A DNA stretch of 64,000 nucleotides from Oscillospiraceae bacterium (GTDB lineage Bacteria > Bacillota > Clostridia > Oscillospirales > Ruminococcaceae): positions 62,001-126,000 of the forward strand of contig JAJQGT010000008.1 of NCBI GenBank assembly GCA_021201135.1, read 5' to 3'. The translations under genes and the position numbers were made by a program. The notes under the pieces are model-generated. The model was given only the letters and a program-made list of their open reading frames with translations, ran no database searches and was not told where the DNA came from. Within the stretch, counting starts at the first letter, position 1. Each line of letters opens with the position of its first letter. Positions 51,345-64,000 of this stretch are shown here, one piece after another.

Positions 51345-51366
51345 ATAACAATCTGAATTCAATAAG

Positions 51367-51405
51367 AAAAGCACCTCGAAGGATTTTTCCTTGAGGTGCT
51401 GTTTT
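51367..51405. terminator. Bidirectional terminator at the end of the kinase/lipoprotein operon
   Basis: AGCACCTC-gAAGGA and TCCTTg-AGGTGCT form a long stem with T and A runs on both sides. It ends the zinc-ribbon gene from the left and the leftward nine-gene operon from the right. Confidence 0.85.
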
Positions 51406-51430
51406 CATGCTCCAAAACTTTTATAATATA

Positions 51431-52903
51431 TCATGGTTCCCAATCAACAAACGTTATTTCAAATGAAATGTTCATCATATTCGGAAGATACTCGTTTGCA
51501 AATTGGTAAAGAGTGATTCCTGTCTGTTCAAGGATAGGCGATAAGAGATCTATATCCACTGATGTTCCCCATGTGTATCCTGCCTCTTGCCTGATTGTAA
51601 ATCTTGTATCTATCGTATCCCCCGGAATTACTACGTCATCATATCCTGTTGCAGTAATAACGATATCGGAATAAGTAAATACATATCTGCCCGTATCCCC
51701 TGTATCTCCGACTTCTGCATTTTCAGGAAGTTGGAGATAACCATTATCACGAATGTTGATAGCAAACAACGGATTGACAGTCCAATTATCAGTATTAGCA
51801 GAAGTATATAGTCCGTCAAATACATATTGATCGTAATCCCAACTAATTTCAAGGGTATCACCGAGAGCACCAACAGTGTAATCGCCGATTGAAGTCCAAT
51901 AAGACCAATTCACACATTCTTGCGTATAAGCCTGAACAGCAAATGGGATGTTGCTACTATCACTCTCGGATTTCGTTTCTTCTGTCTCCTCGTCAAGCGG
52001 TTCAGTCAGCACATATATCGGCACTTCTTCGAACCAGTACAGGGTAGTATCGAACACCCAATACCCATTGACATAACTATATGTAAACTGTCTATGAGAT
52101 ACAAAATCTTCAGAATAGTCAGAACCGTGCTCGAATAGTGTTATATCGTACAGAGTATCACTGACTTTTTCCACATAAATCTCATAATAATACAGTTCAT
52201 CAAAACCACCAAGTCCGTCTGTGGCAGATTCATACAAAGTACCATCCTGCTCTATCCATTCTTTACGCTCAACTAGACTCTCTGCAATATCTGCTGTGAA
52301 ATACTTCTTTGTTAGTGCCAGTACGTCATCAAGAGTTGTTATACCCTCCTCAGAAACACGCTCATATGGATAGTCATTATCAGAAGAATTCCAGTATGGA
52401 TCTGGTCCCATAATCGTATCATTTTCATCTGTATGCTGATTGTACCAGAACCAGCCCCAAGCAAACACGCTTGCTTCATTTATTGCCGCGCCGATTTCTT
52501 CGGCGGTGATTTCAGGGATTTCCTCTTCCTGCTCAAGCTCGTCCTCCGGCACTTCCTCCTCCATCTCAGCTTCGCTCTCTCCCAACAGCTCCGCCAGCAT
52601 TGCTTCAAGCTCTGTCGAGTCATCGACGGCTTCGATGCCTTGTTCGAGAATTGCTATTGCTGAGTCAATGTCGCCCATGGCAACATAAGCCTCCGCCGAG
52701 CCGAGATAAGCCCGTGCATTTTTCGGCTCGACCTCGATAACTTTGTTGAAGTAGACGATAGCCTCCTCATAGTCAAGGTCGGTGAGATATTTTTCACCTA
52801 AGTTCAGATATACGGAAGTAAGTGCCTCGGCGGTGTCAGCGCATGAGGTAAACATGGTTACAGTCAACAAGACCGCAAGGATCAAAGATAGTAGCTTTTT
52901 CAT
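51431..52903 (-). CDS. TPR lipoprotein with IseA-like outer domain
   Basis: 490 residues. Lipoprotein signal (MKKLLSLILAVLLTVTMFTS with the lipid Cys at 21). TPR module at about 28-95 (YLNLGEKYLTDLDYEEAIVY, then VIEVEPKNARAYLGSAEAYV). Acidic linker (about 110-135). A domain follows (about 138-310: FAWGWFW, YERVSEEGITTLDDV, KKYFTADIAESLV, DGTLYESATDGLGG) whose pattern resembles IseA-type DL-endopeptidase inhibitors. The C-terminal 170 residues are unassigned. Last gene of the kinase operon. The first 300 residues are close to the paralogue at 55406, so one arose by duplication. Confidence 0.8.
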   Translation of the reverse strand: MKKLLSLILAVLLTVTMFTSCADTAEALTSVYLNLGEKYLTDLDYEEAIVYFNKVIEVEPKNARAYLGSAEAYVAMGDIDSAIAILEQGIEAVDDSTELEAMLAELLGESEAEMEEEVPEDELEQEEEIPEITAEEIGAAINEASVFAWGWFWYNQHTDENDTIMGPDPYWNSSDNDYPYERVSEEGITTLDDVLALTKKYFTADIAESLVERKEWIEQDGTLYESATDGLGGFDELYYYEIYVEKVSDTLYDITLFEHGSDYSEDFVSHRQFTYSYVNGYWVFDTTLYWFEEVPIYVLTEPLDEETEETKSESDSSNIPFAVQAYTQECVNWSYWTSIGDYTVGALGDTLEISWDYDQYVFDGLYTSANTDNWTVNPLFAINIRDNGYLQLPENAEVGDTGDTGRYVFTYSDIVITATGYDDVVIPGDTIDTRFTIRQEAGYTWGTSVDIDLLSPILEQTGITLYQFANEYLPNMMNISFEITFVDWEP

Positions 52904-52918
52904 CGCACACGCCTTTCT

Positions 52919-53518
52919 TCAGTTTCTTCTCAAATGCTGTGTCTCGGTAAGGGTCGGCTGTTGCCACTTTGCGTCTGCCGAAGGCTTGCCTATGTATTCC
53001 TGATTGGGCAGACCGACATATTCAACCTTAATGGCTTCCCTGCCGAACTTGATGACATCTCCGCTCTTGATGAGCACCGGCTTGTCCGCATGTTGGTCGT
53101 TGACAGTAGTCACATTTGTGCTTCCACAATGTACAACTGCCGGTCCGGAAGCTGTGCTGATTACTCTGAACTGTTCTCTCGAAACGCTCTTGTCGTCAAA
53201 ATGGATGGTGGCATACTCCGCCCTGCCCGCAAGAATTTCGTTCGAAACGGTTACCGTCCAAATCTTGCTGAGATTATTAAGGCTGATGAGCCGAAGCTCA
53301 TACTCCACTCCCGCAACCGGCTGCCGCACAACTTCGGTCTCGTCTCCCGACCGAGAGGCAACAGGAGCCTGCACCGCCTTTGCTTTCTCCTTCTTACCTG
53401 CCTTCTGAACAGGCTTTTCACTCGGCTTCTTAAAAGTTGCAACAAGTATAATCACCGCCACAGCCAACAAAACCGCCGCGCCCAAAAAGCACCCAACCGC
53501 CAAAATAATTTCTTTCAT
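52919..53518 (-). CDS. Membrane-anchored FHA-domain protein
   Basis: 199 residues. One N-terminal membrane helix (about 4-28) followed by a Lys-rich segment, so the C-terminus is cytoplasmic. FHA domain at about 72-170: the pThr-binding Gly-Arg (AGRAEYATIHF), Ser-Arg (KSVSREQFRV) and Asn (STNVTTVN) are present. Between helix and FHA lies GDETEVVRQ with Thr61, an acidic pThr site of the TxxV type that FHA domains bind, reminiscent of the N-terminal switch Thr of GarA/OdhI. It shares the operon with a Ser/Thr kinase, its natural partner. Self-binding after phosphorylation is inference. Confidence 0.88.
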   Translation of the reverse strand: MKEIILAVGCFLGAAVLLAVAVIILVATFKKPSEKPVQKAGKKEKAKAVQAPVASRSGDETEVVRQPVAGVEYELRLISLNNLSKIWTVTVSNEILAGRAEYATIHFDDKSVSREQFRVISTASGPAVVHCGSTNVTTVNDQHADKPVLIKSGDVIKFGREAIKVEYVGLPNQEYIGKPSADAKWQQPTLTETQHLRRN

Positions 53519-53533
53519 CTTAATTTCCTCCTG

Positions 53534-55390
53534 TTAATTTATACGTTCCATAGTCTCTGTGCTGTAAATATTACCGGTGTCGGCGTAGTAAGTTGTCACA
53601 ACGCACTTCTGCACCTTGCCGTCAGAGCCGTACTGATATTCGCGCTCGATGATGTATTTAGTGGTCACGCCATCAACAGTGGCTGTACGGGAAACAAGGT
53701 TGCCAGATGTATCATATTGAAACTCATAAGATGCTATCGTAACCGTTCCATTAGTATATCTAAATGTCTTGGTGGTCTTGACTATCCTTGTTTCTTCATC
53801 GTATTCGTTTTCGGTTGTTTGAGATTTAAATGTGTAGTAATTACCCTCACTGTCTATGAGCATTACATCATAAGGGTCAGAATAGCTCTCAACTGACTTT
53901 ACAATGTTCCCATCATTATCATATTCGTAATCATAGCGAATCCAATAGGAGTTTGTATCTGAATAATCGTCATAGGAAAACGTGTTGGTGTGAGTCTCCT
54001 TAGAAATATTTCCATGAGAATCATATTCATACTCAGTCTTATAGAGCCAATGTCCATCTGAGTTCTTCTGAGTTTGTACCGTCAAATTACCATCGGAATC
54101 ATATTCATATTCATACTTGCATGTGGTCGTACTCGTTGATCCACTATCAGTATATGAGTCTATTTGTGTGCTACTGACTTTGTTCCCATTGGAATCATAC
54201 TCATAAGTGAATGTGGTCGTGCTTGTAAATGTAGTGCCGTCAGTCGTTGTGCTTTTATAGGTTCTTTCTACTATATTCCCTTGAGAATCATACTCATATA
54301 TACTCGTGTAAGTGAACGGTGTACCGTCAGAAGTTATGCTATTGCCGGTATATGTTAAGGATTCACCGCCGCTATCGTAGTTGTACTCGTAAGAGCTATA
54401 TAAATTACTATCTTTATCATATATACGACGGCTTGTAGTCACAAGTCCCGACGTATCCGGTGCAAGCTGATTCAGCAGTTCCTCAATCTCGGTCGTGTCC
54501 GAAGCCTTTTCCAAGCCTTCTTTTAAAATGGCGATGGCGTCGTTTGTATTGGTCTGGTCGATGTAAATGTAGGCGATGGTCAAGTACCATTCGGCGTTGG
54601 TTTCGTCGATTTCGATGAGCTCTTCGGAGAAGTCGATTTTGGTAGCATCGTCTTCGAAGTTGTTCAAGCCGAGCTCGAGGGTGTCAACCGCCGAGGAGAT
54701 GTTGTTTTTGTCCTCGTAAACTCCGGCGAGTTCGAAGTACCACTGTGTTGTGCCTGAGTCGATTTCTATGAGCTTGTCATAGAGCTCGGTTTTATCGTCG
54801 CCGACTCTGTCCATACCCTGCCTGAGAATCGAAATTGCAGAAGTTCTGTTGCTGCTGTCCACATAAACCTGTGCGAGCTCGAGATACCAGTCAACATTAG
54901 CAGCATCCAAGCCAATGAGCCTTTGTAAAATCGTAATTTTGCTATCGCCGTCGGTGACAGAATCCACAGCATCGCTCAGAACCGCGACGGCAGAATCTGT
55001 GTCTCCCCTGCCCTCGTAAATATCCGCAAGGGTTATGTACCACTCGGAAGTCGTCGGGTCAATCTCGATGAGCATTTCCAAAAGCTCTATTGTGACGTCT
55101 TCATCATCCGAGAAAACGTCAAGAGCCGTTTTTAAAAGCTCTATGGCGGACTCAGTGTCACCGAGACCAACATACGCTTCCGCCGCTCCCATATAGGCAC
55201 GGGAATTGCGAGGCTCGACCTCGATAACCTTGTTGAAGTAAACGATAGCCTCTTCATAATTCAAGTCGAGAAGGTATTTCTCTCCCATGTTCAGATACAT
55301 TGAAACCAAAGCCTCGGAGGTTTCGGCACACGAGGTGAAGAGGGTTACGGTTAGTAGGATTGCAAGGATTATGGATAGTAGTTTTTTCAT
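53534..55390 (-). CDS. TPR lipoprotein with C-terminal YD-type repeats
   Basis: 618 residues. Lipoprotein signal (lipid Cys at 21 in LFTSCAETS). The N-terminal two thirds of the first half is a run of about six TPR units (28 to about 300), each with the EID-x-WY-x-A-x-IY pattern. From about 318 on it consists of beta repeats of the YEYDSxGN/YD type (TFTYEYDSNGN, YEYEYDSDGN, TEYEYDSHGN), as in RHS/wall-associated proteins but without any toxin domain. Extracellular, held to the membrane by lipid. Its first 95 residues are nearly the same as in its neighbours. Confidence 0.82.
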   Translation of the reverse strand: MKKLLSIILAILLTVTLFTSCAETSEALVSMYLNMGEKYLLDLNYEEAIVYFNKVIEVEPRNSRAYMGAAEAYVGLGDTESAIELLKTALDVFSDDEDVTIELLEMLIEIDPTTSEWYITLADIYEGRGDTDSAVAVLSDAVDSVTDGDSKITILQRLIGLDAANVDWYLELAQVYVDSSNRTSAISILRQGMDRVGDDKTELYDKLIEIDSGTTQWYFELAGVYEDKNNISSAVDTLELGLNNFEDDATKIDFSEELIEIDETNAEWYLTIAYIYIDQTNTNDAIAILKEGLEKASDTTEIEELLNQLAPDTSGLVTTSRRIYDKDSNLYSSYEYNYDSGGESLTYTGNSITSDGTPFTYTSIYEYDSQGNIVERTYKSTTTDGTTFTSTTTFTYEYDSNGNKVSSTQIDSYTDSGSTSTTTCKYEYEYDSDGNLTVQTQKNSDGHWLYKTEYEYDSHGNISKETHTNTFSYDDYSDTNSYWIRYDYEYDNDGNIVKSVESYSDPYDVMLIDSEGNYYTFKSQTTENEYDEETRIVKTTKTFRYTNGTVTIASYEFQYDTSGNLVSRTATVDGVTTKYIIEREYQYGSDGKVQKCVVTTYYADTGNIYSTETMERIN

Positions 55391-55405
55391 GATGATTCCT
55401 CCTGT

Positions 55406-56635
55406 TTACTCAACATCCAAAAGAATAGTTGTCAGATGATGCCCTGTATGACCATACATAACAGTACCTGCTAGTTCAAGGTGTTCACCAAGCAAATTGC
55501 TCCTTATGTAGCTCTCTGTGTACGGAAGTATAAGCTGTATCTCATCTATTTCCATAACCTCTCCATCATAGCCTGCAACATCACTATAGAGGCTTCTTGT
55601 AATCGGTTCATCCAAAACGAGTATATACACAGTTCCATAATTGTCAGAGTTGAGCTCATAATAGCGATCTGTCAGGATTCCTGATACGGTCAATTCGTCA
55701 TCATCGTATAATGGTTCTGCATCTGTGTCTTCCATCACAGTTATCAGAGTAACCGGCACTTCACTCTCACAGGATAAAGCAGTATCGAATACCCAGTAAC
55801 CATTTACATAACTATAAGTGAAAGTGCTACTAAAAATCCCTATTTCCTCATAACACTCATCTAAATAAACCTTGTACGATGTATCATTGAGTTTCTTCAC
55901 AGTAATCTCATAATAGTCTGGAGGACCAATGCCGCCAAGTCCTTCTGTAGCAGAGACATACAGGACACCATCTCGCTCTATCCACTCTTTCACATTAATC
56001 AGTTCTTCTGCGGCGTCCGCTGTGAAATACTGCTGTGTCAAAATCCTGACATCATCAAGTGTTGTTATCCCTTCTTCTGAAACTCGTTCATATGTATAGT
56101 AGTCGCCGTCATATGGTGCCCAGATTGTGTCGGTCTTGTCTGTATGCTGATTGTCCCAGAACCAGTTCCACGCAAACAAACTCGCCTCATTTATTGCCGC
56201 GCCGATGTCTTCGGCTGTGATTTCAGAGGATTCTTCCTCTTGTTCCTCTTCCAATTCTTCTTGCACAGCTTCATCTTCCGGCACTTCATCCTGCGTCTCG
56301 GCTTCACTTTCTTCCAGAAGCTCACTGAGCATTGCCTGAAGCTCGGTCGGATCATTGACGACTTCTATGCCCTGCTCGAGAACTGCTATTGCACTGTCTA
56401 CGTCGCCCATAGCAACGTAAGCCTCCGCTGAACCAAGATAGGCTCTGGCATTTTTTGGCTCGACTTCGATTACTTTGTTGAAGTAGACAATAGCTTCTTC
56501 ATAATTAAGGTCGGTGAGGTATTTCTCACCCAGATTGAGATATACGGACGTAAGAGCCTCAGCGGGCTCGGCACATGAAGTGAAAAGGGTAAGGGTCAGC
56601 AATATTGCTAAGATGAGAGATGCTAACTTTTTCAT
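55406..56635 (-). CDS. TPR lipoprotein with IseA-like outer domain (paralogue)
   Basis: 409 residues. Signal with lipid Cys (LFTSCAEPAEA), TPR module (28-95), a longer Glu-rich linker (about 110-150) and the same IseA-like domain as the protein at 51431 (FAWNWFWDNQHTD, YERVSEEGITTLDDV, QQYFTADAAEELI, DGVLYVSATEGLGG). The C-terminus (about 300-409) differs completely: a small beta domain ending HHLTTILLDVE. Start at 56635 (MKKLASLIL) after GGAGAA; a longer in-frame start is not lipoprotein-like. Confidence 0.82.
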   Translation of the reverse strand: MKKLASLILAILLTLTLFTSCAEPAEALTSVYLNLGEKYLTDLNYEEAIVYFNKVIEVEPKNARAYLGSAEAYVAMGDVDSAIAVLEQGIEVVNDPTELQAMLSELLEESEAETQDEVPEDEAVQEELEEEQEEESSEITAEDIGAAINEASLFAWNWFWDNQHTDKTDTIWAPYDGDYYTYERVSEEGITTLDDVRILTQQYFTADAAEELINVKEWIERDGVLYVSATEGLGGIGPPDYYEITVKKLNDTSYKVYLDECYEEIGIFSSTFTYSYVNGYWVFDTALSCESEVPVTLITVMEDTDAEPLYDDDELTVSGILTDRYYELNSDNYGTVYILVLDEPITRSLYSDVAGYDGEVMEIDEIQLILPYTESYIRSNLLGEHLELAGTVMYGHTGHHLTTILLDVE

Positions 56636-56648
56636 TGTGGTTTTCTCC

Positions 56649-58139
56649 TTATCCCCAGGCAGTACCGTCAAGCATACCGGAGGTGTCTGCCCTGCTGGTG
56701 TTGAAATTACTCAGGTCAAGCTCCATGAGGGAACTGCATCTGCAGAACATGCGATACATTGTTGTAACTTCCGATGTGTTAAAACTGCTCACATCAACGG
56801 TTTCAAGAGATGCGCATCCATAAAACATGCAATACATACTCGTTACATTGCGTGTATTGAAGTTGCTCAGGTCGAGAGATTTAAGCGATTCACAGCAATA
56901 GAACATGTTGCTCATCGTTGTGACCCGAGAAGTATTGAAGCTACTCAAATCGAGAGATTCAAGAGACTCGCAATAGAAGAACATGTCCCTCATATAGAGC
57001 ACTTTTGACGTATCGAAGCTCGTCAGGTCAAGAGATGTGAGCAAACTGCAAAACTCAAACATGTAGTCCATATCAATAACCTTTGCAGTATTGAAATGGC
57101 TCAAATCAAGTGATGTCAGAGAACTGCAAGCGCCGAACATCGAATCCATGCTTGTGACGTTTGAGGTGTCGAAACTGCTGATATCGAGATAAGTAAGGGA
57201 ACTGCACGAGTCGAACATTGCCGCCATATTCTCAACCTTCGAGGTGTTGAAACAGCTTAAATCAAGTGATGTCAAGGAACTGCAATGGTCAAACATATAA
57301 GCCATGTCTGTAACTGCGGAAGTATCGAAGCAGTTATTGAAATTAATCTGGATAAGTGAGGAGCAACCATGCTGTTCGCCGTTCTCATCAATCCAGGAAT
57401 ACCTGAACATTCCTCTAGCGTCTTCATCCGCTTTTATGCCGCCGTCACCCGCTACATAGAGATGTGTTCCGTCGAGCCATCCCAGAACACTGCCGTCGCC
57501 ACTAAGCGAAAAGTCCCAAGCATCCTCAGGAGCGTCTGCGGTTGAATCCAGAAAGTCAATTTCGGTTATATCGCTCTTGGTGGAATAAACGAAGTTCCGA
57601 ATCATATTATTGTCAAGGACATTCCCGCTGACCTGCGCTGTGACGCCACTTATATCCACGCCGGTAAAGCTCGCCAGAAGCTTTCTGAGCTCTGTTTTAT
57701 CGGAAGCATTCTCCACGCCCTGCTTAAGTATTTCTATTGCTCTGTCCTCTTCTCCCCAATTTATGTATATCTGAGCAAGCTCAAGGTACCATTTCGCTTC
57801 CGTTGGGTCGACTTCAATCAGCTTTTCAAGAATATCAACCTGTGAATATTCATCATCCCAGAAGACATCAAGGGCATTTTCGAGCATTTCAATCGCAGAA
57901 TCGGTATCTCCCAAACCTTCATAAGCCTCAGCAATTCCGATATAAGCCCGACTGTTCTTCGGATCAACCTCAATAACCTTTTCAAAATTGACAATAGCCT
58001 TCTCATACTCCATATCCGAAAGATACTTCTCGCCAAAGTCAAGATACATAGACACCCGCGCCTTGTCCACCCTTGCACAAGACGTAAACAATGCCATAGT
58101 AAGAACGATTACTAAGATTAGGGATAATAACTTTTTCAT
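56649..58139 (-). CDS. TPR lipoprotein with DUF285 (BspA-type) leucine-rich repeats
   Basis: 496 residues: signal with lipid Cys (LFTSCARVDKA), TPR region (28 to about 150), an entry domain (DITEIDFLDS, then WDFSLSGDGSVLGW and HLYVAGDGG) and nine 26-residue DUF285 repeats of the form FNTSxVxxMxxMFxxCxSLxSLDLS, closed by a short cap (DTSGMLDGTAWG). DUF285/BspA repeats are surface-exposed binding modules in gut and oral bacteria. The shared N-terminal module ties it to the kinase operon. Confidence 0.88.
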   Translation of the reverse strand: MKKLLSLILVIVLTMALFTSCARVDKARVSMYLDFGEKYLSDMEYEKAIVNFEKVIEVDPKNSRAYIGIAEAYEGLGDTDSAIEMLENALDVFWDDEYSQVDILEKLIEVDPTEAKWYLELAQIYINWGEEDRAIEILKQGVENASDKTELRKLLASFTGVDISGVTAQVSGNVLDNNMIRNFVYSTKSDITEIDFLDSTADAPEDAWDFSLSGDGSVLGWLDGTHLYVAGDGGIKADEDARGMFRYSWIDENGEQHGCSSLIQINFNNCFDTSAVTDMAYMFDHCSSLTSLDLSCFNTSKVENMAAMFDSCSSLTYLDISSFDTSNVTSMDSMFGACSSLTSLDLSHFNTAKVIDMDYMFEFCSLLTSLDLTSFDTSKVLYMRDMFFYCESLESLDLSSFNTSRVTTMSNMFYCCESLKSLDLSNFNTRNVTSMYCMFYGCASLETVDVSSFNTSEVTTMYRMFCRCSSLMELDLSNFNTSRADTSGMLDGTAWG

Positions 58140-58154
58140 AATGGTTGCTCCTTT

Positions 58155-59900
58155 TTATTCGAAGATGGTGCCTTTGAACATGTCTGTTGTGTCAGCATTA
58201 TTTATATCGAAATTTGAAATATCAAGCGAGCTAAGTGATGAACATCCAGCAAACATAGTTCTCATATCCGTAACCTGTGAAGTATTAAAACTACTCAAAT
58301 CAATATAATTAAGTGAACTGCAGTATCCGAACATAGACCTCATATTAGTAACGTTAGAAGTGTCAAAATTACTTACATCCAACGAAATAAGAGAACTACA
58401 GCCATTAAACATATCCTGCATATCAGTAACATTCGATGTGTCAAATGTGTTTACGTTAAGCGAAGTCACCAAATGACATCCATTAAACATAAAGCTCATA
58501 TCCGTAACATTAAAGGTTTCAAACTTACTAACATCAAGTGAAGTAAGAGAATTACAACCACTAAACATTGCTTTCATATCAGTAACATCCGATGAATCAA
58601 AAGAGCTAATGTCTATTGAAATCAACGACTGACAATTATTAAACATACCGCTCATATCTGTAACATTTGATGTGTCAAAGTTACTCAAATCAAGACTAAT
58701 AAGCGCATAGCAATTCTGAAACATTACTTCCATATTAGTTACGCTCGAGGTATCAAAACTGCTCAAATCAACAGTAGTGATAGCCTTACACTCAGCAAAC
58801 ATGTAACCCATATTAGTGACATTTGATGTGTCAAAGCTACTTAAATCAAGTGTAACTAAAGAAGAACACCCAGCAAACATATGCCGCATATTAGTAACAT
58901 TTGACGTGTCAAAGCTACTTAAATCGAGTGAGATTAAAGCGGAACATGACGCAAAAATAAGCTGCATATCAGTAACATTAGACGTGTCAAAACTGCTAAG
59001 GTCTAAAGTTATAAGCGATTCGCACTCCGAAAACATGTGATTCATGTCTGTTACATTGGAAGTGTAAAAGCAGTCATTAAAGTTAATAGCTTGTACTGCA
59101 GTATATGCTTTATTTCTGGATGATACTTCTCCAAACAAATAACTCGCATCCTCATCCGCAATAACTCCTCCATCCCCGGCAATATATAGATGCGTATCTT
59201 CAATCCACCCTAATACACTCCCATCACCGTCAAGAGAAAAGTCCCAAGCATCAGCAGGTGCGGCTTCAAGCGAATCAAGAAAATCAATTTCGGTTATATC
59301 TTTCTTATCAAAATGAGTAGCATTGCGAATCATTTTATTATTGAGGACACCGTAATTACTTTCATATGCGGGCTCTACTTGTACAGTTTCTTCTTCAATT
59401 ACTTCCGGCTCTTCTTCGGGTAGCAATTCCGCAAGAAGCACTTCTATCTCTTCGGTGTCACTTGCATTAGCCAACCCCTGTTCCAGAATTTCAACTGCCT
59501 TATCGGTATCTCCCTTATCTATGTAAATCTGTGCCAAGGCAAGATACCATTCAGCGGTTGTCGGGTCGATTTCGATGAGCATTTCAAGAAGCTCGATAGT
59601 CACTTCTTCATCGTCTGCGAAAACTTCAAGAGCAGTCTTGAGAATGCTGATTGCACTTTCAGTGCCTCCAAGACCGACATACGCTTCCGCCGCTCCCATA
59701 TAGGCACGAGCATTGCGGGGTTCTACTTCTATGACTTGGTTGAAGTAGACAATTGCCTGCTCATAGTCTAAGTCGAGGAGATACTTCTCGCCGAGGTCTA
59801 AGAGTTCGGTTGAGGTCAGGGCTTTTTCTGTCTCGCCGCAAGAGGCAAAGAGGGTCAGAGCGAGGGTTATTACTAGGATGACTGATAGGAGCTTTTTCAT
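58155..59900 (-). CDS. TPR lipoprotein with DUF285 leucine-rich repeats (paralogue 2)
   Basis: 581 residues: signal with lipid Cys (LFASCGETEKA), TPR region (30 to about 150), acidic linker (EEEPEVIEEETVQVEP), entry domain (ITEIDFLDS ... DFSLDGDGSVLGWI), and twelve 26-residue DUF285 units, ending DTTDMFKGTIFE. Almost the same plan and close sequence to the partial gene at 62267, from which it is separated by the kinase and a 51-residue membrane peptide. Confidence 0.88.
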   Translation of the reverse strand: MKKLLSVILVITLALTLFASCGETEKALTSTELLDLGEKYLLDLDYEQAIVYFNQVIEVEPRNARAYMGAAEAYVGLGGTESAISILKTALEVFADDEEVTIELLEMLIEIDPTTAEWYLALAQIYIDKGDTDKAVEILEQGLANASDTEEIEVLLAELLPEEEPEVIEEETVQVEPAYESNYGVLNNKMIRNATHFDKKDITEIDFLDSLEAAPADAWDFSLDGDGSVLGWIEDTHLYIAGDGGVIADEDASYLFGEVSSRNKAYTAVQAINFNDCFYTSNVTDMNHMFSECESLITLDLSSFDTSNVTDMQLIFASCSALISLDLSSFDTSNVTNMRHMFAGCSSLVTLDLSSFDTSNVTNMGYMFAECKAITTVDLSSFDTSSVTNMEVMFQNCYALISLDLSNFDTSNVTDMSGMFNNCQSLISIDISSFDSSDVTDMKAMFSGCNSLTSLDVSKFETFNVTDMSFMFNGCHLVTSLNVNTFDTSNVTDMQDMFNGCSSLISLDVSNFDTSNVTNMRSMFGYCSSLNYIDLSSFNTSQVTDMRTMFAGCSSLSSLDISNFDINNADTTDMFKGTIFE

Positions 59901-59935
59901 ATTTTCCCTTCCTTTCGGTTACACTTCCGGATTAG

Positions 59936-60091
59936 TCACTTCGGCGAGACGCCGTATTCTTCGTTAAGCTTCTTTCTGAGGCGTTTGCGGCTTCCCGCAA
60001 GGACGATTATAACAATGATTGTGATGATTGCAGTAACTGCGATTCCCAAAAGTCCTCCGTAAAAGAGGAGTTGTCCCGGTGTAAAACTCAT
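59936..60091 (-). CDS. 51-residue single-helix membrane protein
   Basis: The frame runs from ATG at 60091 to TGA at 59936, preceded by AGGAGGTAGCAAC at ideal spacing. The product has one membrane helix (about 8-34, LLFYGGLLGIAVTAIITIIV and on) followed by a strongly basic segment (SRKRLRKKLNEE) and a short tail, so N-out/C-in is likely. It begins 12 bases after the kinase stop and is clearly part of the operon. No family recognised; it could assist the kinase in the membrane. Confidence 0.75.
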   Translation of the reverse strand: MSFTPGQLLFYGGLLGIAVTAIITIIVIIVLAGSRKRLRKKLNEEYGVSPK

Positions 60092-60103
60092 GTTGCTACC
60101 TCC

Positions 60104-62251
60104 TTAGTCAAACCAGCCGTTTGCTTCAAGCTGGGCTATCAACGACTCGAGCTGTTGCATATCTGCGTCTATGGTTTCTGTTGTCAGATTCTCTTGGTAA
60201 AGAGCCTCTGCCTGTTCGTAATATTCTTTTGTCTTGGTATAATCCCGCTCTTCGTTTTCAAGCTCAGACTGCATGTCCGCCTCGACAAACGCCATACGCA
60301 TCGGAACTCGATAATCCGTCGGGAACAGCTCACTCATTTCTTCGAGCATGTCCATCGCTTTGTCGAAATCTCCGACCGTCTGATAAAGAATAGCGAGGTT
60401 CTGCATGATGTGGAACTGCGAAGATACGCTTTCGTTCAGGTCTTCGAAGACGGAGATCGCTCCTTCATACGCTTTAACGCTTACATAAGCATCCGCCAAA
60501 CGTTCCTTCATCTCGTTTACGCAACTGAGCGGAATTCTCTTCAAAGATTCGGTCAAAAGCTCCACAGATAATCCTGCTTTTCCCTCCAGCTTATAGATTT
60601 CATCGGTGGTTCTGTAAGCTCTGTAGAGAAGATACTGGTCGCTCGATTCGCTGATTACCTCTTTGAAGAGCTCAACGGCGAGGTCGTAGTCCTGCTCCGC
60701 AAATGCAATTTCTGCGGAAGTAAAGCTGAGTGAAGCCTCATCAAGTCCAAGCTCTTCTGCTGTCTCGAGCACTTCCTTTGCCTTGTCTACATATCCCGTT
60801 CTTGCAAGGCAGACGGCATAATCACGATAGTAGGTTGCGTTGTCTGTGACAAACTGGGTCGCTATCCCGAAGTAATCCCTTGCCGTGGCGTAATCGGGAT
60901 CTCCCGTCTGATAATAATAGCAGTTGGCGAGAATATAGTAGATGTCGCCGAAGCCGTGCTGATATTCTTCTACCGACTGGAACTCGGCTATGTTTCCGAG
61001 GTTGTCCTCGATATATTCACGGCATGTAGTGATGTCGTCATCCGCCCAAAGCCGTTCCGCCATTGCAAGATAAGGGTCAAGCCTGTCCCAATAAAGCGAC
61101 AGTGCCTCATCGTAAGGCTCATACGGGTCTTCGGCGGTTTCAATCTCGCGAACAAGTGTGTAGTACTTCTCCTCTTTTTCCTGCGCCATGACGTTAAATC
61201 CGACAATAGTGGTCGAGATAAAAATCGCAAAGATCACCGGCAGAATTATTGCCGCCGCTATTCTCTTAGACCGTGCAACTCTCCAACGGACATCGTGCTT
61301 ATGGATATTTGCGATAGCCGTCTTCAAAGCCGCCGCACTTGAAATTCTCTCAAGCGGATTATCCTTGAGCGACTGCTCGATTATGTAAACAATGCCTTCG
61401 CTGTAATGCCCGACCTTCGACAAGGGCTCTATTGCCGAAGGAACCACTGGCGGATGAACACCACTGAGAAGATGATACATGGTTGCGCCGAGGCTATAAA
61501 TATCCGAAAGCTTCCAGTCAATTCTGGTATCATCAATCGGATGGTATTTCTGATTATACGGAGCTGTGCTGTCAACAAGCTCGGTCGTATAGCCACTGAC
61601 GCGCTCGGTAGTTTCGTCGTCAAGCCTTTCAGTGGCATCGGGGTCAGTGCTTCTTATATGCCTGTCCGACCGCTCATAGCGAATCGGCGACGACAAAAGC
61701 GACTTGTATTTTTCGTAGATTGCATACTGCTCCGGCGAGCAATAGCCCAAAGAGCGGCTGATTAACTGGACATCATTTCCCGAAACCAGAGCCGCATTGA
61801 AGTCTATCAGGCAGACATCGCCGTTCGGCAGAAGCATTATATTTGCCGGCTTTATATCACGGTGACAGATATTATTCTTATGAAGCACTTCCACTGCCGA
61901 AGCAAGCTGCGCATACCACTTGACAACCTGCGCCTGAGTGAATGTGAATCCGTTCCGAAGAAGCTTATCAAGGCTCTGTCCCTCGATAAACTCCATGACG
62001 GTATAAAACTGCCCGTTCTCATTCAGAAAGTCATAAACCTGCGGGAGATACTCGCTCTTGACATTCTTAAGCGCATCCCTCTCCTGAGAACTACCCTCGG
62101 CGTTAAACAAAGTCTTGATGACCACCCACTTCTGCAAGTTAAAGTCCCAAGCTTTAAACACCGCTCCGCCCCCACCGGCACCCAGCTTCTCCGTGATGCG
62201 GTAACGAGGATTGGATATTACGGGGATTTCTATGGTTTGATTGTTAGGCAT
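60104..62251 (-). CDS. Transmembrane Ser/Thr protein kinase with extracellular TPR domain
   Basis: 715 residues. Kinase domain at 17-315: Gly-loop LGAGGGGAVFKAWD (23-36), Lys46 in VVIK, catalytic HRDIKPAN (130-137), and DFN (150-152) where DFG is usual, then GYCSPEQY (169-176). Between this and SDIYSLGATMYHLL (249-262) lies an insertion of about 60 residues with three similar sites TERL (207-210), TERV (215-218) and TELV (223-226). One membrane helix (about 331-353) leads to an outer domain of TPR-like units (about 360-715), in place of the PASTA repeats of PrkC-type kinases. AGGAGG precedes the start. Operon partners are an FHA protein and six TPR lipoproteins. Confidence 0.92.
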   Translation of the reverse strand: MPNNQTIEIPVISNPRYRITEKLGAGGGGAVFKAWDFNLQKWVVIKTLFNAEGSSQERDALKNVKSEYLPQVYDFLNENGQFYTVMEFIEGQSLDKLLRNGFTFTQAQVVKWYAQLASAVEVLHKNNICHRDIKPANIMLLPNGDVCLIDFNAALVSGNDVQLISRSLGYCSPEQYAIYEKYKSLLSSPIRYERSDRHIRSTDPDATERLDDETTERVSGYTTELVDSTAPYNQKYHPIDDTRIDWKLSDIYSLGATMYHLLSGVHPPVVPSAIEPLSKVGHYSEGIVYIIEQSLKDNPLERISSAAALKTAIANIHKHDVRWRVARSKRIAAAIILPVIFAIFISTTIVGFNVMAQEKEEKYYTLVREIETAEDPYEPYDEALSLYWDRLDPYLAMAERLWADDDITTCREYIEDNLGNIAEFQSVEEYQHGFGDIYYILANCYYYQTGDPDYATARDYFGIATQFVTDNATYYRDYAVCLARTGYVDKAKEVLETAEELGLDEASLSFTSAEIAFAEQDYDLAVELFKEVISESSDQYLLYRAYRTTDEIYKLEGKAGLSVELLTESLKRIPLSCVNEMKERLADAYVSVKAYEGAISVFEDLNESVSSQFHIMQNLAILYQTVGDFDKAMDMLEEMSELFPTDYRVPMRMAFVEADMQSELENEERDYTKTKEYYEQAEALYQENLTTETIDADMQQLESLIAQLEANGWFD

Positions 62252-62266
62252 TTTGAGGTCCTCCTT

Positions 62267-64000
62267 TTATTCGTAGATAGTGCCTTTGAACATATCTGTT
62301 GTGTCGGCATTAGTTGTGTCAAAGTTAGAGATGTCAAGGCTTGTAAGAGATGAGCACCCTAAAAACATACTTCTCATATCTGTTACTCTAGAGGTGTCAA
62401 AGCTACTTACGTTTAACGAAGTGATACTAGAACAAAAATAAAACATTTCACGCATATCTACAACTTTTGAAGTATTAAAACCACTTAAATCAAGAGAAGC
62501 AAGAGAACTACAGCTACCAAACATGCTTCTCATATCTGTGACATTTGATGTGTCAAAATCTATACTTAAGGAAGATAGAGATTGACATGTACTAAACATT
62601 TTGTTCATACTTTCCACGTTTGATGTGTCAAAACCACTTAAATTCAGTGAAACAAGCGCTTTACATAATTCAAACATTGATGACATGTCTGTCACATTAC
62701 CAGTTCTGAAAGAACTTAAATCGAGAGAAATCAAGTTGTAACAATTATAAAACATTCTGGACATATCAACAACATTAGAAGTATCAAAACCACTTACATC
62801 AATTGATGTCAACGAACCACAGGTGTCAAACATATATGCCATATTGACAACATTCGCTGTATCCAACTCTCCCAAATCAAGAGAAGTGAGTGAAAAGCAC
62901 TGCATAAACATTCGAGCCATATTTGTCACTTTTGAAGTATCAAAATTACTTACATCTAGTGATGACAAGGAACAGCAACAATTAAACATTGAAAGCATAT
63001 TAGTAACATTTGATGTGTTAAAGTTACTTACATCAAGAGTCTCAAGGTCATAACAGTAGTGAAACATGGATCCCATATCAGTAACATTTTCAGTATTAAA
63101 ACTGCTTATATCTAGTGAAATAAGATTGCGACAATACTCAAACATACTCTTCATATTATTTACTTTCGAAGTATCAAAGCCACTTAAGTCGAGGCTTAAA
63201 AGAGATTCGCATTCATTAAACATTTGTTCCATCGTTTGCACATTTGATGTATCAAATCCACTCAGGTCGAGAGAAGTAATCAAGCTACAGTACTGAAACA
63301 TCGCAAACATATTTTCAACGTTTGAGGTATCAAAATTAGAAACGTCAAGACTTTCAAGACTAGTACACTGATTAAACATAAATCCCATATTTGTAACGTT
63401 TGACGTATCTAGAGACGTTAGATTAATTGCAACAAGTGAACTATACTCAGCAAACAAACCAGATGCATTTTCATCCGAAATAACTCCCCCATCTCCTGCA
63501 ACATATAGGTGAGTGTCCTCAAGCCATCCAAGCACGCTTTCATCACTATCAAGTGAGAAATCCCAGGCATCAGATGGCGCACTATCAAGAGAATCCAAGA
63601 AGTCAATCTCAGTTATAGTACTCTTGTCAAAATAAGTAGGGTTGCGAATCATGTCGTTATCAAGCACACCGTAATTACTTTCATATGTGGGCTCTACTTC
63701 TACAGTTTCTTCTTCAATTACTTCCGGCTCTTCTTCTGGCGTCAGTTCAGCAAGAAGTGCCTCTATTTCAGCCGTGTCGTTAGCATTATTCAACCCCTGC
63801 TCCAAAACCTCAATCGCCTTATCCGTATTCCCTTGATTTATGTAAATCTGTGCCAAGTCGAGATACCACTCAGCTGTAGTCGGGTCGATTTCGATAAGCA
63901 TTTCGAGAAGTTCAATCAACACAGCTTCGTCGTCCGAGAAGACATCAAGCGCTGTCTTGAGAATGCTGATTGCACTTTCTGTATCTCCTAAACCGACATA
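62267..64000 (-). CDS. TPR lipoprotein with DUF285 leucine-rich repeats (partial, start outside)
   Basis: The frame is open to the right edge of the window (the first visible residues are YVGLGDTESAISILKTAL, the second half of a TPR module), so the signal peptide lies beyond 64000; the GTG at 63922 is not the true start. After the TPR and acidic linker (EEEPEVIEEETVEVEP) come the entry domain (ITEIDFLDS ... SLDSDESVLGW) and fifteen 26-residue DUF285 units, with the cap DTTDMFKGTIYE. Nearest relative is the gene at 58155. Confidence 0.88.
   Translation of the reverse strand, partial: YVGLGDTESAISILKTALDVFSDDEAVLIELLEMLIEIDPTTAEWYLDLAQIYINQGNTDKAIEVLEQGLNNANDTAEIEALLAELTPEEEPEVIEEETVEVEPTYESNYGVLDNDMIRNPTYFDKSTITEIDFLDSLDSAPSDAWDFSLDSDESVLGWLEDTHLYVAGDGGVISDENASGLFAEYSSLVAINLTSLDTSNVTNMGFMFNQCTSLESLDVSNFDTSNVENMFAMFQYCSLITSLDLSGFDTSNVQTMEQMFNECESLLSLDLSGFDTSKVNNMKSMFEYCRNLISLDISSFNTENVTDMGSMFHYCYDLETLDVSNFNTSNVTNMLSMFNCCCSLSSLDVSNFDTSKVTNMARMFMQCFSLTSLDLGELDTANVVNMAYMFDTCGSLTSIDVSGFDTSNVVDMSRMFYNCYNLISLDLSSFRTGNVTDMSSMFELCKALVSLNLSGFDTSNVESMNKMFSTCQSLSSLSIDFDTSNVTDMRSMFGSCSSLASLDLSGFNTSKVVDMREMFYFCSSITSLNVSSFDTSRVTDMRSMFLGCSSLTSLDISNFDTTNADTTDMFKGTIYE

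Follow-up and report, generated by a model that had tools for sequence, protein, structure and literature searches.

The stretch of DNA considered here, called the window, comprises 64,000 nucleotides (positions 62,001 to 126,000) of contig JAJQGT010000008.1 from Oscillospiraceae bacterium assembly GCA_021201135.1, a gut-type member of the Clostridia with 2.33 Mb in 32 contigs; the genome is denoted G000 and the contig C23. From 51431 to 64000, the window carries nine genes, all on the minus strand and separated by 12-35 bases: five whole lipoprotein genes (lip1 to lip5), a sixth cut by the window edge (lip6), a Ser/Thr kinase gene, an open reading frame (ORF) of 51 residues, and a gene for an FHA protein (Table 1). 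With its start at 56635, lip3 lies 13 bases from lip4. The original prediction placed at least nine closely packed leftward genes in front of one terminator, and the short gaps and the stable hairpin bear this out. The run is larger than proposed, however, with 23 genes over 31 kb, of which the nine window genes form the downstream tail. In addition to ten lipoproteins with one common module of signal peptide and TPR, it encodes a PP2C phosphatase, an FHA-ABC exporter and two more kinases. A consensus promoter and terminator scan returned about as many sites as in shuffled sequence, and the terminator hairpin was absent from its list.

Table 1. Features of the operon; positions are those of the window unless prefixed with C23 (contig positions).
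Feature	Position	Strand	Basis
Rho-independent terminator directly 3' of the last gene	51358..51410	-	Folding energy -20.9 kcal/mol (z -5.25, 200 shuffles); stem followed by a T-rich tail
lip1: lipoprotein, TPR module and possibly an IseA-like outer part	51431..52903	-	Sequence, lipobox; TPR residues 31-100 with predicted local distance difference test (pLDDT) 83-92
Membrane-anchored FHA protein	52919..53518	-	Pfam FHA 3e-11; helix 8-26; DETEVV motif in the linker that precedes the FHA domain
lip2: lipoprotein with TPR module, additional TPRs and YD/RHS repeats	53534..55390	-	Domain matches, lipobox
lip3: lipoprotein, TPR module and lip1-like part, C-terminal DUF4431	55406..56635	-	Domain matches, lip1 alignment, lipobox
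lip4: lipoprotein, TPR module and DUF285 repeats	56649..58139	-	DUF285 7e-83, lipobox
lip5: lipoprotein, TPR module and DUF285 repeats	58155..59900	-	DUF285 7e-80, lipobox
51-residue single-helix peptide, TsxK-like, conserved kinase neighbour	59936..60091	-	Helix 14-32; homologues beside kinases
Ser/Thr kinase: kinase domain, insert 185-241, helix 321-347, TPR ectodomain ~357-710	60104..62251	-	Pfam, alignment, AlphaFold model
lip6: lipoprotein, TPR module and PARCEL/DUF285 repeats	62267..64000, 219 bases further beyond the window, to C23:126219	-	Domain matches
PP2C phosphatase	C23:143431-144285, outside the window, same run	-	PP2C match 2e-10

The six window lipoproteins share the signal and TPR module, the start of which lies beyond the window edge in lip6. 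The module had been called near-identical among them, which is too strong, as its first 95 columns are 60-88% identical (mean 69%). Over 106 residues, the ten modules of the cluster are 53-87% identical (mean 65%), and all ten have the lipobox Cys at residue 21. When the entire G000 genome was queried with the lip2 module, the ten complete copies recovered were all located in this cluster; the only hits outside it, covering query residues 1-37 and 1-28, were short and both at C9. Between module pairs, the mean proportion of synonymous differences (pS) is 0.79, with 37 of 45 pairs above 0.72 and thus near saturation, and the mean proportion of nonsynonymous differences (pN) is 0.23. These values imply that the copies are old, constrained and kept by selection. 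Recent duplication or gene conversion as the source of their similarity was rejected in view of the near-saturated synonymous sites.

Behind the module, the lipoproteins of the cluster differ, with outer parts made of DUF285/PARCEL repeats, YD/RHS repeats, SH3 plus C-type lectin, DUF4431 or, weakly and in lip1, an IseA-like part. The predicted DUF285 repeats in three window lipoproteins and YD repeats in lip2 were found, but the two predicted IseA-like parts come down to a weak structural match for lip1, to which lip3 is linked through its likeness to lip1 (outer parts 58-61% identical over 170-221 residues). In a fold search, IseA chains 8wt4, 2rsx and 8i2e ranked 14th, 26th and 33rd for lip1 (E 1.2e-3 to 2.2e-3); this is a lead only, because beyond the TPR part the lip1 model is of low quality (mean pLDDT 50). 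Sequence comparison with solved structures gave no IseA match up to E = 1. Genomes G010 and G015, whose kinases are 90% identical to that of the window, have 11 and 12 lipoproteins in the fetched stretch, and their best-matching outer parts are only 35-97% identical to those of the window. Such low outer-part identity beside 90% identical kinases fits the expectation for a changing set of sensors. Among ten lipoproteins of relatives that were scanned, two carry RCC1 and two BspA-type leucine-rich repeats (LRR), with transglutaminase and RHS matches also present; three have TPR only and one TPR with a weak DUF2963 match. Varied outer parts (RCC1, BspA-type LRR, transglutaminase, YD) recur in other Clostridia.

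The kinase was expected to have an outer TPR domain, and domain matches, one hydrophobic helix placed before the TPR part and the structural model agree on this. The predicted layout places the kinase domain inside the cell and a TPR superhelix outside, with a single membrane helix between them. The AlphaFold model, based on 14 sequences, has a mean pLDDT of 77.7 and a predicted template modelling score (pTM) of 0.46, with superhelix-like helices up to residue 710 and very low confidence in residues 185-241. Lys46, Asp132, Asn137 and Asp150 are invariant in 34 aligned kinases, and the DFG motif reads DFN, the Asn being nearly invariant in the same set. The kinase domain matches an NCBIfam entry with E 3e-35, far below the cut-off of that entry, and the best fold match of the model is a PknB-GarA entry. 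A Pfam scan of the outer part returned TPR families only, with no PASTA.

The low-confidence insert of the window kinase contains ATERL, TTERV and TTELV, and relatives have up to four TEL-type motifs in a row. The pattern T[EQVKR][LVIF][LVIFR] occurs in 18 of the 22 inserts of at least 35 residues among the 34 aligned kinases, where 2.2 would be expected after shuffling, an excess that counts for less because the pattern was chosen after the sequences had been viewed and the kinases share ancestry. It is found 36 times in 1692 insert residues versus 5 times in 6501 kinase-domain residues. In 12 of the 34 kinases, the insert is short and without the motif; similar TVLL or TQLL repeats occur in partner or small proteins of other genera. 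TERL, TERV and TELV in the presumably disordered insert are plausible FHA docking sites, judging from sequence.

The FHA protein and the 51-residue peptide were proposed to be membrane-bound, and each has one predicted hydrophobic helix. The FHA protein's linker motif resembles the TE-type motifs of the kinase insert; a DUF6382 domain was not found in it at E up to 0.001. The peptide has no Pfam or NCBIfam match, yet relatives 30-90% identical to it adjoin the kinase in other species. A 12-sequence peptide profile gave matches with E no higher than 0.01 in 52 of 396 family genomes. The 20 matches that reach E up to 1e-5, spread over 19 genomes, were examined, and each of them adjoins a kinase gene. 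Five genomes with a peptide match have no match to the ectodomain profile, and in each of them the peptide has a kinase gene as its neighbour. Only these five are an independent test, because the profile rows come from kin of the window peptide and from some of these loci. The peptide lies upstream of a sister kinase (746-998 residues) in four of them and downstream in one. A spurious 51-residue ORF was rejected, its profile having led to kinase genes in five extra genomes. In L098, L101, L103, L111-L113 and L115, the small single-helix protein is likewise encoded upstream, not downstream, of a sister kinase of 746-998 residues.

The distribution of the parts was followed with profile searches in which, per family genome, up to 4 (ectodomain), 17 (peptide) or 12 (module) first-look candidates were scored, and absences hold at that sensitivity. 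Among 31 genomes of the genus, four have the kinase ectodomain, and there are two weak partial matches besides. The ectodomain is also present in 21 of 396 family genomes (11 of 126 genera) and in 7 of 391 class genomes, of which three belong to the same family. The kinases of the named relatives Thermoclostridium caenicola DSM 19027 and Acetatifactor muris DSM 23669 are 56% and 53% identical to the window kinase. The original prediction proposed conserved co-occurrence of the lipoproteins and the kinase as a check and would have been contradicted by a module found mostly without the kinase. Within the genus, the link holds: the module extends beyond the signal peptide in all four kinase genomes, and the other 27 give one weak partial match (G005, E 4e-4) and otherwise signal-peptide or repeat matches. 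Within the family, the module occurs at E up to 1e-13 in 38 genomes, the window genome included, namely in 19 of the 21 kinase genomes versus 19 of the 375 others (Fisher p 5.6e-20), a count that leans towards kinase genomes, since the profile was built from kinase-linked copies. The link is strong but not exclusive, because in half of the module genomes no such kinase reached the threshold.

Thirty-eight kinase loci were counted, leaving out the duplicates L105, L095, L096 and G358b and not including L130. In 30 of them, a module protein is encoded no more than 7 kb from the kinase. A peptide-profile match lies within 700 bases after the kinase in 33, or in 35 if G375a and G247 are added, where the match overlaps the end of the kinase gene by 33 and 31 bases, respectively; the peptide profile draws six of its rows from these same 38 loci. 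Of the three loci without a peptide match, L104 stops at a contig edge; the other two, G360a and G231, carry a different short ORF with a helix at that place. The gene order kinase, peptide, module protein recurs across genera of other Clostridia. Partners are lipid-anchored in ten loci (window, G010, G015, G021, L097, L098, L101, L102, L103 and L106), the kinases of which all share at least 52% identity with that of the window; in L099 and L100, the kinases are equally close and the partners helix-anchored. Arrays of six and five module proteins with lipoprotein-like starts were seen at L124 (G357:C82) and L123 (G297:C108), without a kinase in the fetched stretch.

The operon may encode an outside-to-inside phospho-signalling system in which the lipoprotein module docks on the kinase ectodomain, a reading given about even chances. 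The common TPR module would dock on the TPR ectodomain, perhaps joined at the membrane by the 51-residue protein. Different things, such as the cell wall, sugars or other cells, would be sensed or bound by the variable outer parts. Docking would alter the kinase, which would then phosphorylate the TE-type threonines of its own insert. Both the FHA protein and the operon's FHA-FHA-ABC exporter would bind the phosphorylated insert and be switched by it, and the PP2C phosphatase would reset the phosphorylation state. The role given to the threonines is modelled on PknG of Actinobacteria, where, as described in PMC8546545, autophosphorylated threonines in a disordered kinase segment recruit the FHA substrate. 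That phosphorylation is read inside the cell by the FHA protein had already been proposed; the repeated TE-type motifs in the kinase family make this likelier. A fuller picture, held more tentatively and at somewhat less than even chances, has one kinase served by a changeable set of about ten lipoproteins through a common TPR plug, the 51-residue protein as an obligate subunit and the TE-type motifs, as tandem autophosphorylation sites, forming an FHA docking comb, the kit being derived from or shared with two types of type VII secretion system (T7SS), T7SSe and T7SSj, and forming an independent sensory system in some Clostridia.

Several observations weigh against this signalling scheme. The contact between lipoprotein TPR and kinase TPR is inferred, and TPR modules are common and may bind another partner or one another. 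Phosphorylation of the insert motifs is likewise conjectured from sequence; the strict motif matches the window kinase only once (TELV), and an acid-led version of the pattern gives no match there. No module neighbour is present in 8 of the 38 kinase loci, and at the threshold used, this kinase was not found in 19 of the 38 family genomes that bear the module. Stretches were fetched for 17 of these 19; a kinase or T7SS gene lies in six, and neither in the other 11, three of which are on contigs of less than 6 kb. Two module lipoproteins of G015 are on a second contig, and the best module matches of G357, G358 and G360 are on contigs other than that of the kinase. Finally, in many relatives, the module protein is helix-anchored, not lipid-anchored.

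The original prediction knew of no described system of this shape, which is too strong, because the kit resembles that reported for T7SSe and T7SSj. According to the main text of Garrett, Higginson and Palmer (2024, PMC11217815), these types comprise a kinase (TsxD), a single-helix protein (TsxK), a DUF6382-FHA protein (TsxJ) and a PPM phosphatase (TsxF); TsjD carries a C-terminal TPR domain, T7SSj occurs in Clostridium species, and the Discussion raises phosphorylation control of these T7SS types as a possibility. Compared by description rather than sequence, the window kit corresponds in its membrane kinase with C-terminal TPR (as TsjD), its 51-residue single-helix peptide (as TsjK, a small single-helix protein with a short inner stretch), its FHA protein, and the PPM/PP2C phosphatase of the same run (as TsjF). 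It differs from TsjJ, with DUF6382 and FHA, in that the window FHA protein has FHA only. A counterpart of the large Ig-like TsjI did not show up, in that a general scan of 19 cluster-region proteins, not a dedicated search, gave no Ig domain. The words "lipoprotein" and "TPR" do not occur in the main text of PMC11217815, and a limited literature search together with that text yielded no lipoprotein partners for this kinase kit. New relative to the T7SSe/T7SSj kit are the ten module lipoproteins and the presence of the operon without detectable T7SS in two relatives. The kit of kinase, peptide, FHA protein and PP2C looks like an offshoot of the T7SS signalling kit with its own set of possible sensors.

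This resemblance gives some weight to an alternative in which the operon is a T7SS regulator, the kinase controlling EssC and the lipoproteins being outer T7SS parts or target sensors; it is considered unlikely, though it is the strongest of the rivals. A T7SS marker occurs in the fetched stretch of 19 of the 38 kinase loci, and WXG100 in 14 of 27 kinase genomes versus 1 of 14 control genomes. EssC is present in 3 of the 31 genus genomes (G000, G014 and G021), and in G021, it is next door to a cassette of FHA protein, kinase, peptide and one lipoprotein. On the window contig, a T7SS locus lies on the same strand at about C23:152-174 kb (152386-174258; L032, L011), some 8-30 kb upstream of the operon. 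That locus has two kinases, two PP2Cs and FHA proteins of its own, which speaks against this alternative, along with a MinD-like ATPase, EssC, YukD and WXG100; the DUF6382 match of its FHA protein is below cut-off. EssC, WXG100 and YukD are not inside the operon but about 9-17 kb beyond its PP2C end. G010 and G015 keep the operon, yet no EssC (E up to 1e-30) and no WXG100 (E up to 1e-5) were detected in these genomes, which are given as 100% complete. A purely T7SS role is rejected on these grounds, and the operon in this lineage can probably work without a T7SS.

The lipoproteins could also be surface adhesins or wall binders in which the TPR module is an assembly or spacer part, the operon being shared for co-expression without any contact with the kinase. 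Parts such as PARCEL/DUF285, YD repeats and C-type lectin are characteristic of surface proteins. All of them are present here; the outer repeats of lip4 and lip5 (DUF285) and lip6 (DUF285 and PARCEL) resemble those of PARCEL/DUF285 surface proteins, and arrays such as L123 and L124 exist without a kinase in the stretch. In the window, however, the repeats are fused behind a TPR module and stand beside a kinase, and the adhesin explanation leaves unexplained the constraint on the module in ten copies, the recurring order of kinase, peptide and module protein, and the strong co-occurrence. It is regarded as a little less probable than T7SS regulation. That the FHA-FHA-ABC exporter is the main output, gated by the kinase and the FHA proteins with the lipoproteins as cargo or accessories, is very improbable: a two-FHA exporter does lie in the same run, but none is in the listed neighbourhood of the G021 cassette, the one further locus examined for it, and its reading frame (G000:C23:134969-137296) is split in two in G000, with a single 776-residue frame and the same start in G010 and G015. 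The FHA gene is split likewise in G010, and one lipoprotein match in G015 contains an in-frame stop; such broken frames in G000, G010 and G015 are either assembly errors or real breaks.

The signalling system proposed here also shares features with two other kinds of kinase pathway. The PknG-GlnX-GlnH-OdhI/GarA pathway has an outer lipoprotein sensor, a membrane protein, a TPR-bearing kinase and an FHA partner, as outlined in PMC8546545. It differs from the window operon in having one lipoprotein versus ten and no common TPR module, and no amino-acid-binding-protein family of the GlnH type was found among the 19 cluster-region proteins scanned. The TPR of PknG is inside the cell, and PknG has no membrane helix, whereas the window kinase has one before the TPR. 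With the PknB/Stk1 PASTA kinases, the window kinase shares a Hanks-type kinase domain, one membrane helix and an outer sensor part, which is of TPR and not PASTA type. PknB-type bacterial Ser/Thr kinases have a built-in sensor part; should a kinase borrow exchangeable lipoprotein sensors via a common plug, this would represent a modular receptor logic, of which we know no other case in bacteria. The 51-residue protein and the TE-type motif would offer two direct handles on a kinase family also present in little-studied T7SS types.

The remaining 14 genes of the run lie upstream of the window on the same strand, with no gap above 117 bases, up to the PP2C gene. In the order of transcription, the run starts with PP2C, a kinase with Sel1 repeats, and a kinase with a TPR match and three NPCBM domains. 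These are followed by a lipoprotein with TPR, DUF2963 and RHS matches, the FHA-FHA-ABC ATPase, the ABC2 membrane part, a 429-residue protein without family, two zinc-ribbon proteins, and a lipoprotein with SH3 and C-type lectin. Last before the window genes come a YD-like lipoprotein, a zinc-ribbon protein with DUF285-like repeats, a second YD-like lipoprotein, and another zinc-ribbon protein. Nine of the 14 were scanned against Pfam; those at C23:126303, 126957, 128080, 129612 and 133098 are described from their sequence, with repeats assigned from matches to other proteins.

The 429-residue protein (G000:C23:133683-134972; this copy was scanned) has no Pfam or NCBIfam family, and a look-alike of 440 residues is encoded at C20:252337-253659, adjoining a second kinase and PP2C cluster. 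A cluster of kinases, two PP2Cs and, by eye, several FHA-like proteins lies at G000:C20:239682-252293 (L012). In L099 (13975-17916), L100 (13337-17254) and L097 (14795-18688), the kinase-peptide pair is followed downstream by a gene for a protein of some 1300 residues; that of L099, the one scanned, contains a VWA domain.

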